The notes under the pieces: model-generated
Database searches by the model: none
Told to the model about the DNA's origin: nothing
Seen by the model: the letters and a program-made list of their open reading frames with translations, nothing else
Translations under genes and position numbers: made by a program
Source of the DNA: a virus
IMG/VR virus record: IMGVR_UViG_3300030380_000373
Coordinates: 1-20,673 of that record
Length of the DNA: 20,673 bases
Direction: 5' to 3' (one strand)
Part shown: positions 3,947 to 20,025 of the stretch, piece by piece
How positions within the stretch are numbered: the stretch's first letter is position 1
Layout: each line of letters starts with the position of its first letter

Positions 3947-4132
3947 ATGTCTAAAATAATATTCCTGTTAGGGTGGTTTTGCCTTAATGGTGAATGTGTC
4001 AGTGTAAACGAACAACACAAATCCGTACAGGATTGCAAAAATCAAGGAATGCAATTAAAGTCTATGTTAGATGAACAAAATATTCGTAAATATTTTTTAT
4101 CCTGTATTGATATCAATCCCAACACTTACTAG
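3947..4132 (+). CDS. Small Cys-containing protein with hydrophobic N-terminus
   Basis: A 61-residue protein with a short hydrophobic start (MSKIIFLLGWFCL) and cysteines at positions 12, 17, 30 and 53. It contains NGECVSV, and a near-copy of NGECV recurs in the 12-residue minicistron at 19523-19561. No Shine-Dalgarno sequence is visible before the ATG, so expression may depend on coupling to the upstream gene, which ends 9 bases before. The hydrophobic start could be a weak signal or a membrane tether with disulfide-linked periplasmic residues. Function unknown. Confidence 0.55.
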   Translation: MSKIIFLLGWFCLNGECVSVNEQHKSVQDCKNQGMQLKSMLDEQNIRKYFLSCIDINPNTY

Positions 4133-15491: not shown

Positions 15492-15796
15492 AAGGCAAGA
15501 CTGTTTCAGTTAATGATTTCTATAACTGGACACATCAACAACATGGACAAAAGAAATGCTTTTGTGGTAAGTTTGCATGTATCGGTTTTAATTATAGATA
15601 TGGTATGTTAGAACTATTATGCTTTCAGCATTATCAAGAAAGGATAAGCAATGGCACTAACCAAGAAACAAAAGAAACTACCAATGGCTTTACAAAAAGC
15701 TATTCTCAAGAAACAAAAGAAAAAGAAAGGAAAATAAAATGCCTTATGGAAAAGGGTCTTATGGCTCAAAAACAGGACGACCACCAAAAAAAATGA
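15482..15796 (+). CDS. Cys-rich open frame with no start; possible -1 frameshift extension
   Basis: This frame is open from 15452 (after a TAG) to the TGA at 15794-15796. It contains no ATG, GTG, TTG or CTG before 15605, yet the part before 15605 looks coding: KVKGKTVSVNDFYNWTHQQH, then CFCGKFACIGFNYRYG, then MLELLCFQHYQ. Cys codons at 15557, 15563, 15578 and 15620 plus His at 15629 form a zinc-binding-like set. It is reached from the DUF5824-like gene by a -1 shift in CAAAAAGAAAAAG (15476-15488). The last part overlaps two tiny genes in other frames and may not be meaningful. Alternatives are a sequencing indel in the A-runs, a decayed gene, or a non-canonical start. Confidence 0.45.
   Translation, partial: EKVKGKTVSVNDFYNWTHQQHGQKKCFCGKFACIGFNYRYGMLELLCFQHYQERISNGTNQETKETTNGFTKSYSQETKEKERKIKCLMEKGLMAQKQDDHQKK
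15651..15737 (+). CDS. 28-residue basic protein
   Basis: ATG 15651 with AAAGGA (15639-15644) upstream opens MALTKKQKKLPMALQKAILK followed by KQKKKKGK. It is entirely free of acidic residues. The KKQKKLPxALQKAILKK pattern is one I recall from tiny proteins encoded next to head genes of marine phages. Its location within the basic-protein cluster supports it as real despite its length. It probably binds nucleic acid or another head protein. Confidence 0.6.
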   Translation: MALTKKQKKLPMALQKAILKKQKKKKGK

Positions 15797-15822
15797 AAAA
15801 GAGAAAGAAGAAGAAAAAATAA
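15739..15822 (+). CDS. 27-residue basic protein (MPYGKGSYG type)
   Basis: ATG 15739, one base after the previous stop, with AAAGGA (15726-15731) upstream, opens MPYGKGSYGSKTGRPPKKMK followed by a Lys/Arg tail. The opening GKGSYGSKxGRPPKK is a recognisable pattern of tiny phage proteins (recollection), and GRPPKK resembles AT-hook-type minor-groove binders. The stop overlaps the next ATG by one base. A DNA-binding role is inferred. Confidence 0.62.
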   Translation: MPYGKGSYGSKTGRPPKKMKKRKKKKK

Positions 15823-18000: not shown

Positions 18001-18843
18001 ATGGCAGATGAAACAACCTCCAGTACGGTTTCCGAACTGTACACTGAAATCGTAGCTGAAGCACAATTCGTTATTCAAGAGAAATCTATAATGAAAAACC
18101 TTGTGAAGAACTACGCAATCGCAGGTGGTGGTAAGTCAGTTGAAGTTCCTATTTACGCCGCAGTTAGTGCCGCGGCAGTAGCGGAAGCAACAGATTTAGC
18201 CAACACAGCAATCAATCCAAGTTCTGTGACTATTACAGCCTCAGAAGTTGGTGTAATGACAACATTAACAGACCTAGCAAGAAACTCAGCACCAAGAAAT
18301 GTAGCCGCAGACATTGGTAGACTTTTTGGTGAAGCAATCGCTAAGAAAATGGACCAAGACTTAATTGCTCTATTTGATGGCTTTAGTACCGCCGCAGGTA
18401 CAGACAGTGCAGTACTTTCCCCTGCAACTGTATTTAATGCCGCTTCAACACTGAGAGCCGCAGGTTTACCTGTTAATGAAACATATCTTGTTGTACACCC
18501 AAAGGTAGCGTATGACCTCAAATCTGGTCTTACAAATACTTTTGCAGGTTTAGATACAGAATTGTCAAATGAAGCATTAAGAAATGGCTTTATTGGTCAA
18601 ATCGCAGGTATCAAAATCTTTGAAACAGGTAATATGGCAAACACAGGCACAGCAGGTGATTACAAAGGTGGAATGTTCCACAAAGATGCACTTGCTTTAG
18701 CTATGATGCAGGACATTAAGATTGAAACACAAAGAGATGCTTCTTTAAGAGCAGATGAGATTGTAGCAACCGCAGTTTATGGTGTTGGTGAATTACATGA
18801 TTCATATGGTATTGAAGTTATCGCTGATTCTTCAATCCAATAA
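18001..18843 (+). CDS. Major capsid protein (HK97-fold)
   Basis: A 280-residue protein with AAAGGA (17988-17993) 7 bases before the ATG. The N-terminal helix (AEAQFVIQEKSIMKNLVKNY), the strand pair with SVEVPIYAAVSAAAVAEATD, PSSVTITASEVGVMTTLTDL and the end HKDALALAMMQDIKIETQRD, then TAVYGVGELHDSYGIEVI, match compact HK97-like major capsid proteins. Richer in Ala/Gly, with more GCC/GCA codons, than the neighbours, consistent with high expression. Followed by a stable hairpin. Confidence 0.93.
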   Translation: MADETTSSTVSELYTEIVAEAQFVIQEKSIMKNLVKNYAIAGGGKSVEVPIYAAVSAAAVAEATDLANTAINPSSVTITASEVGVMTTLTDLARNSAPRNVAADIGRLFGEAIAKKMDQDLIALFDGFSTAAGTDSAVLSPATVFNAASTLRAAGLPVNETYLVVHPKVAYDLKSGLTNTFAGLDTELSNEALRNGFIGQIAGIKIFETGNMANTGTAGDYKGGMFHKDALALAMMQDIKIETQRDASLRADEIVATAVYGVGELHDSYGIEVIADSSIQ

Positions 18844-18856
18844 TAATACTTTTATG

Positions 18857-18876
18857 GGTGGGGTTAACTCCCCACC
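18857..18876 (+). terminator. GC-rich hairpin after the capsid gene
   Basis: GGTGGGG (18857-18863) pairs with CCCCACC (18870-18876) around TTAACT, in an otherwise AT-rich region. No T-run follows, so it is not a complete intrinsic terminator. It may stabilise the capsid transcript against 3' exonucleases or partly attenuate downstream transcription, a common device after capsid genes. Confidence 0.6.
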
Positions 18877-18894
18877 TGTTCAGAAAGGAATATT

Positions 18895-19047
18895 ATGAAA
18901 TTAACTAATGGAAAAAAATTTATTGAAAGACCACTTACAGATTATGAAAAGAATAAAAATATTTGGGAATTAAGAGGGTGGAAACCTGTTGAAGATAAAC
19001 CCAAAGTTGATAAGGTAGAAAAACCAAAGAAAAAGAAAGATAAATAA
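18895..19047 (+). CDS. Small basic protein after capsid gene
   Basis: A 50-residue protein with AAAGGA (18884-18889) 5 bases before its ATG; not long enough for usual cut-offs. KKFIERPLTDYEKNKNIWEL, then RGWKP and a Lys/Asp/Pro-rich tail. It resembles in plan the 20465-20653 product (hydrophobic-acidic opening, Trp/Gly-aromatic-Lys, KKK tail). Its stop overlaps the adaptor ATG by one base. Possibly a head decoration or connector accessory protein. Confidence 0.62.
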   Translation: MKLTNGKKFIERPLTDYEKNKNIWELRGWKPVEDKPKVDKVEKPKKKKDK

Positions 19048-19523
19048 TGGCAACATCAGAATTTTCAGTAGCACTATCAGATATTCAAGTCTATCAACCT
19101 GATATAGCAGAATATGGCATCACAGACTTTGATAATCAATTACAACAAGCTGAGAATGATGTTATTAGACAAATTAGAGAAGAATGGTGGGAAAGATACC
19201 GCCATACAGTTAGATACAAAGATATTACTAAAGTCACTACACTAGAGTTAGATAGTTCCAAATTAACAAACGCACAATGGACTAGAAGTGTGGCTTATAA
19301 AGCAATGGCAGATTATATTTTTCCAATATTAACCAAATGGAAAGACCCACAAGGGGGAGATGGACAAGATGCTTTCCAAGTACAGATAGAATTTTACAGA
19401 GCAAAATATGCAGAAGAATTTAATGCAATATTGCGTGATGGTGTTGAATATGATGAAGATGGAGATTCATCCATATCAGCTAGTGAAAAAGAACCCATAC
19501 ATACATTAAGGTTGGTGAGATAA
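19047..19523 (+). CDS. Head-tail connector/adaptor protein
   Basis: A 158-residue protein, mainly helical. TDFDNQLQQAENDVIRQIRE, EEWWERYRH and NAQWTRSVAYKAMADYIFPI, then QVQIEFYRAKYAEEFNAILR match gp6/gp15-type head-tail connectors in size and position, directly after the capsid gene. It would sit below the portal ring. Both ends overlap neighbours by one base. Confidence 0.75.
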   Translation: MATSEFSVALSDIQVYQPDIAEYGITDFDNQLQQAENDVIRQIREEWWERYRHTVRYKDITKVTTLELDSSKLTNAQWTRSVAYKAMADYIFPILTKWKDPQGGDGQDAFQVQIEFYRAKYAEEFNAILRDGVEYDEDGDSSISASEKEPIHTLRLVR

Positions 19524-19561
19524 TGTGCGAATTTTGTAATGGTGAATGTGTCTGTAGATAA
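19523..19561 (+). CDS. 12-residue four-cysteine minicistron
   Basis: ATG 19523 overlaps the adaptor TAA by one base, and its own TAA (19559-19561) overlaps the next gene's ATG by one base. It encodes MCEFCNGECVCR with Cys at 2, 5, 9 and 11. The exact fit between two TAATG junctions keeps a coupled ribosome moving through the three genes. The peptide could bind a metal, or the frame may exist only to couple translation. No ribosome site of its own. Confidence 0.5.
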   Translation: MCEFCNGECVCR

Positions 19562-20025
19562 TGGTAGCGAATGTTCGCATCAAGGACAATTCTGTTCAAG
19601 TAAGTAAATCAGTTAAAAAAGTTTCTAAACAAGTACAAAGAGCGATTAAAAGAGCCTTAGCTAATGCAACTGCTTTTGAGATTTCTTCTATTAAAGACCG
19701 TACCCAAAGTAAAGGCGTAGACTTTAGAGGTAGAGCGTTTAAGCCGTATTCACCTAAATATAAAAGAAGATTAGTTAAAGAATCTGGTGTTGTTGATTTA
19801 ACTGACACTGGTCAAATGTTTAGTTCATTAACAAGTAAAGTCACCCCAAGTAAAGGTCAATTATTTTTTAGACAAGCATCAGCTAATAAAAAAGCATTTT
19901 TTCATGATGTTGCAGGTGTTGGTAAAAGTAAAGTTATCCGACCCTTTTTTAGTATAAGCAAAAAAGAAGAAACAAATATTGAAAAGATATTCTTTAATGT
20001 GTTAGAAAGAGAACTGAGATTATGA
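19561..20025 (+). CDS. Tail completion / virion morphogenesis protein (gpG/HK97 gp10-like)
   Basis: A 154-residue basic protein. SVKKVSKQVQRAIKRALANA is the N-terminal helix; RGRAFKPYSPKYKRR and LTDTGQMFSSLTSKV are signatures of the phage virion morphogenesis family. It lies between the connector and the terminator as usual. It helps join heads and tails. The stop overlaps the next gene by 4 bases. Confidence 0.82.
   Translation: MVANVRIKDNSVQVSKSVKKVSKQVQRAIKRALANATAFEISSIKDRTQSKGVDFRGRAFKPYSPKYKRRLVKESGVVDLTDTGQMFSSLTSKVTPSKGQLFFRQASANKKAFFHDVAGVGKSKVIRPFFSISKKEETNIEKIFFNVLERELRL

Follow-up and report, generated by a model that had tools for sequence, protein, structure and literature searches.

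Can an open reading frame of 39 bp, enclosed between two larger phage genes, be a gene in its own right, and what might a product of 12 residues do? The question is raised by the microgene MCEFCNGECVCR (positions 19523..19561, plus strand), whose cysteines follow the spacing C-x2-C-x3-C-x-C (type A). It lies in a viral record of 20,673 bases and 33.6% G+C, the whole of which was analysed and is referred to here as the window. Terminase, portal, scaffold, major capsid and tail-terminator genes are present in the window. The upstream neighbour of the microgene (19047..19523, plus strand) is a putative head-tail adaptor, named from gene order only. The downstream neighbour (19561..20025, plus strand) is a putative tail-completion or virion-morphogenesis protein, named from gene order and from its homologue in phage HTVC111P, which is annotated 'virion morphogenesis family like protein'; the tail-terminator gene (phrog_3907) comes next. 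Neither neighbour matched a Pfam or PHROG family, and adaptor homologues in Pelagibacter phages are annotated as hypothetical. The nearest cultured relatives of both flanking proteins are mostly Pelagibacter phages (31-41% identity), together with the lake phage DSL-LC06.

The microgene and its junctions

The microgene is joined to both neighbours by a one-base TAATG overlap, as the original prediction had stated: the adaptor stop TAA occupies 19521-19523 and the ATG of the next gene begins at 19561. Each junction lies in a copy of the direct repeat AGATAATG. The first copy (19518..19525, plus strand) comprises the last codon and stop of the adaptor gene and the overlapping microgene start, and the second, 38 nt downstream (19556..19563, plus strand), the last codon and stop of the microgene and the overlapping start of the next gene. 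TAATG junctions alone are not special, since one-base overlaps also occur in 10 other adjacent gene pairs among those checked in the window. The density of cysteines, described at the outset as unusual (four in 12 residues), is so by calculation: at the Cys frequency of the window (0.8%), an ORF would hold four or more Cys among 11 residues with a probability of about 1e-6, and the microgene was the sole match when tiny Cys-rich ORFs were sought throughout the window. Because about 0.5 such ORFs, at any position, are expected per window under a Markov model, the sequence on its own, with conservation set aside, is suggestive evidence for a gene. Tiny coupled ORFs encoding almost only Lys (MKKRKKKKK) were also observed, at 15793-15822 in the window and in similar places in loci L004, L092, L202 and L272; they sit where neighbouring small genes end.

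An RNA element at this site was considered and rejected: the window has no Rfam match, and no unusual RNA fold was found at the microgene (z 0.45 and 1.71). A strong hairpin (GGGTGGGGTTAACTCCCCACC; -22.1 kcal/mol, z -3.9) is present at 18840-18900, just after the major capsid gene. A short ORF is kept across it in several relatives, and it is possibly an RNA-processing, attenuation or mRNA-stability element.

The NGECV core of the peptide had been noted to occur also in the small gene at 3947-4132. The motif is literally there, and 16 identical bases (TAATGGTGAATGTGTC) are common to the two genes, but relatives of gene 3947-4132 read AGECI or NGECV within a different, 61-residue protein. Homology on the basis of this motif was therefore rejected, and the 16-base match is probably a coincidence of codons.

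Presence and absence in relatives

Relatives were fetched by the flanking genes alone, giving 85 rows with distinct adaptor genes. The check suggested with the original prediction, a search of related genomes for a small Cys-rich frame between the two genes, found a Cys minicistron there in 30 of the 85 rows; in eight more (MCECNGNCICGK, MCDCNGQCICGK) it lies immediately upstream of the adaptor gene. It is absent from 47 rows, in most of which the adaptor and the next gene abut by TAATG. No minicistron lacking Cys was found at the adaptor/tail-completion junction among the 85 rows. On these comparative grounds we take conservation as decisive for the reality of the microgene, every minicistron at this junction in relatives being a Cys minicistron. 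Direct abutment of the two genes and loss of the Cys codons had both been named beforehand as evidence against it. The former was found, as described, and the latter was never seen where the gene is present; the abutting genes in relatives show that the gene is optional and movable. This accessory phage gene of 39 bp is genuine; its product has 12 residues, and it is too short for the usual gene finders. Neither of the closest cultured phages, HTVC111P and HTVC202P, carries it, it is absent from the stretches examined of HTVC026P, HTVC112P and DSL-LC06, and a short DNA search of the phage collection returned nothing credible.

The state of the microgene changes at least eight times on a quick adaptor tree. 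In the window two copies of AGATAATG frame it as a unit of exactly 38 bp, and empty relatives have one copy, carrying a single AGATAATGG. We infer that gain and loss occur by recombination between AGATAATG-type repeats, with both neighbours left intact. Since the microgene starts with ATG and ends in TAATG, it could enter or leave any one-base stop/start junction through short-homology recombination without harm to its neighbours, and such recombination would account for its wandering, as a single copy, among late-gene junctions.

The precise TAATG junctions at both ends would also suit a spacer or a translation-coupling device whose peptide serves no use; translation coupling was the second role that had been offered for the microgene. 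A cis-acting coupling device is unlikely because the genes of the empty relatives couple directly by TAATG without it. The microgene also occupies many unrelated junctions, its upstream spacing varies freely among relatives and an SD-like site of its own is often present; the peptide itself is under selection, including its non-Cys residues, as described below. We consider the coupling explanation very improbable.

Selection on the peptide

The type A consensus is MC[ED][FYL]C[NGS]GEC[VIL]C[RK], and further forms are MCxCxGxCxC[RK] and MCxCNGxCICGK. The Cys spacing of the window peptide compares with C-x-C-x3-C-x-C in 11-residue relatives, and Cys makes up 33-36% of the 11-12-mers. Among 25 distinct flank-ascertained 12-mers, pN/pS was 0.154 (pS 0.675, pN 0.104), with a bootstrap range of 0.122-0.183 that understates the uncertainty because the rows are related. 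All 11 third codon positions vary, against only four first and three second positions. The Cys codons had a pN of 0, with TGT/TGC swaps only (the 12-mer class is defined partly by the Cys pattern, and Cys invariance is better judged from the site counts given above). For the non-Cys codons pN/pS was 0.23, and Gly7 and Glu8 were invariant. Inclusion of loci found by pattern gave a pN/pS of 0.147 for 45 distinct 12-mers; permutation of the columns of this set yielded a median ratio of 0.66 and a minimum of 0.158 (65 usable draws). Selection acting on the peptide is well supported by these substitution patterns.

Genomic contexts and phage lineages

A motif scan of viral contigs returned at least 119 matching stretches. 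Among the matches listed, 115 of 117 inspected loci were true short ORFs, with over a dozen neighbour-gene combinations and eight unrelated downstream gene clusters behind the microgene. Upstream neighbours include an XkdW-domain protein, a Phage_tail_APC protein, a DUF6321 protein, a phage lysozyme and tail-fibre-like proteins; downstream neighbours include a membrane-protein family (phrog_20984), a signal-peptide protein like that encoded at 1119-1652 in the window (phrog_20531) and an FmdB-like protein. Two of these sites were checked by flank-only searches: the microgene was found before the unrelated membrane-protein gene in 21 of 80 loci (one of the 21 being cut by the locus end) and before the FmdB-like gene in all 17 loci. 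FmdB proteins usually carry zinc-ribbon cysteines in the N-terminal region; that of the FmdB-like protein MPLYQYENKKTGEEF, directly after the four-Cys microgene (L171, L164, L423-L439), is without Cys.

Terminase identity between carriers and the window runs from 63-73% down to 21-34% or no detectable similarity, and most carriers have no capsid protein detectably similar to that of the window. Judged by these two proteins, the microgene family is one that crosses phage lineages. One microgene site per contig was found, with 29 carriers among 49 contigs searched whole or in part, a count made with a pattern that divergent copies may escape and on contigs of which many are fragments. That the frame arose by chance from the junction sequence could be argued from its length of only 39 bp and from random Cys-rich tiny ORFs being not very rare per window. 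This is refuted by conservation across divergent contigs and contexts, and the reversed control pattern gave no match in any record searched; the frame is almost certainly not a chance product. The motif followed by a stop codon had one match in contigs of 84,980 bacterial and archaeal species, a chance match that is not a Cys ORF, and origin as a host gene or from a prophage was rejected. No description of a family of 12-residue Cys microgenes was found in open-licence papers.

A paralogue, MCECCEDYDCICK (consensus MC[EK]C[CN]E.Y[DN]C[IV]CK), is found either by itself or immediately upstream of type A, and further variant peptides were detected (MCNCGGDCVCGGR, MCKCNGKCICGK, MCDCKTDEDCVCRLR). 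In several contigs type A and the paralogue form a single in-frame ORF of 28 residues, for example MCECCEDYDCICKGVIMCEYCNGECVCR, with eight to nine Cys (loci L157, L295, L299, L303). The fused 28-mers had no match in Pfam, PHROGs or NCBIfam at E values up to 10, in searches that have little power with such short queries, and the scorpion peptide returned from the PDB at an E value of 5.9 is a chance entry. These natural fusions would lend themselves well to expression and metal-binding studies.

A Shine-Dalgarno-like (SD-like) motif lies upstream of the microgene in 81 of 145 distinct contexts, which speaks indirectly for translation. The microgene overlaps the downstream start in 123 of the 145, by TAATG in 95 and by ATGA or TGATG in 28. 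So common an overlap could point to a cis-acting, Cys-responsive leader, in which scarce Cys-tRNA would slow ribosomes at the four Cys codons and so tune the downstream gene, although this type of junction is the default of the genome. Regulatory poly-Cys short ORFs do exist, and in mycobacteria they lie upstream of the genes that they regulate in response to cysteine (Canestrari et al. 2020, as cited in PMC9094748). As described there, they resemble the microgene in being very short, Cys-rich and next to a larger gene, but the microgene has a conserved peptide sequence and differing neighbours. It precedes many unrelated genes, with no fixed downstream partner among the eight clusters, its constraint extends beyond the Cys codons to the residues between them, and it is fused in frame with a second Cys peptide. 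It also lies in mid-operon rather than in a leader position, and the site gives no RNA fold signal. We consider a Cys-responsive leader improbable.

Proposed function

Peptide-level selection, frequent SD-like sites of its own, in-frame fusions and indifference to the neighbouring gene argue for a peptide that acts in trans. We infer that the microgene is translated in vivo, and its translation would take place together with that of the late structural operon, through termination-reinitiation at TAATG; in many relatives the microgene's own SD-like site would be used instead. The original prediction had suggested a metal-binding microprotein. The microprotein is strongly supported, and metal binding is plausible from the Cys spacing. 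A trans-acting Cys-thiolate metal-binding peptide is the function that we consider somewhat probable; metal binding is favoured because the thiol spacing fits metal-thiolate modules and phytochelatins of similar size bind Zn(II). The four invariant thiols would most likely wrap one soft metal ion, either Zn(II), Cu(I) or possibly Fe, in the manner of phytochelatins and metallothionein modules, and the conserved acidic/aromatic, Gly-Glu and C-terminal Arg/Lys positions may tune metal binding or dock the metal-peptide to a partner.

The main rival is likewise a translated, trans-acting peptide, but one for which a metal is not the main means of action, namely a short docking or redox/disulfide peptide with a host or virion protein as its binding partner. 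The conserved non-Cys positions of type A (acidic-aromatic, Gly-Glu and a basic end) are consistent with docking, the junctions lie mostly beside late virion or lysis genes, and the thiols of so short a peptide, at 12 residues, could serve redox, docking or disulfide roles. However, Cys is the most constant feature across type A, type B and the 11-residue forms, whereas other residues vary, and the Cys spacing is that of metal-thiolate modules. We regard a docking or redox peptide as rather unlikely, and the metal-binding peptide remains our preferred reading.

A broader proposal is that these peptides form a previously unrecognised family of ribosomal, phytochelatin-sized metal-thiolate peptides, encoded by a nomadic phage gene of 36-45 bp that hops between late-operon TAATG junctions in several unrelated lineages. 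We judge the chances of this proposal to be about even; if it is true, few known protein-coding genes that move horizontally would be as small. Even at 12 codons a gene can be conserved, undergo duplication and fusion and occupy different places in unrelated phages, and since gene finders work only above such lengths, many comparable genes may be missed. Should the product bind metal, it would represent a natural metal-thiolate peptide of minimal size, and it may be asked why marine-type phages would manage metals or thiols late in infection.

Comparison with known systems

Short phage genes have been predicted in bulk (Fremin et al. 2022, as cited in PMC11323111) and, as characterized there, they resemble the microgene in being small and missed by standard gene calling. 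The microgene peptides share the metallothionein trait of high Cys content in CxC and CxxC motifs with no hydrophobic core. No homology to a known metallothionein family was detected in Pfam, PHROG or NCBIfam, where queries this short are weak, and the peptides are not filed as members of such a family. The Cu-thionein of Neurospora crassa has 26 residues and seven Cys, and the C-x-C-x3-C-x-C module, whose spacing is that of the 11-residue microgene members, is found within fungal metallothionein patterns (PMC4755600). Fungal Cu-thionein is further alike in its Cys-rich composition without a hydrophobic core, in its CxC and CxxC motifs and in the Gly and Lys/Arg between its Cys. In contrast, the microgene peptide is less than half as long, has four Cys, is a putative metal binder with a conserved aromatic residue in type A, and is phage-encoded within operons, with no detectable homology to the fungal protein. 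Phytochelatins differ in being enzymatically made gamma-Glu-Cys repeats rather than ribosomal products and in their Cys spacing, but they are similar in size and Cys number and have acidic residues beside Cys. For PC2-PC5 among the phytochelatins, affinities for Zn(II) are micro- to picomolar (PMC11191002), and this class of compounds shows that peptides as short as the microgene product bind Zn(II) and Cd(II).
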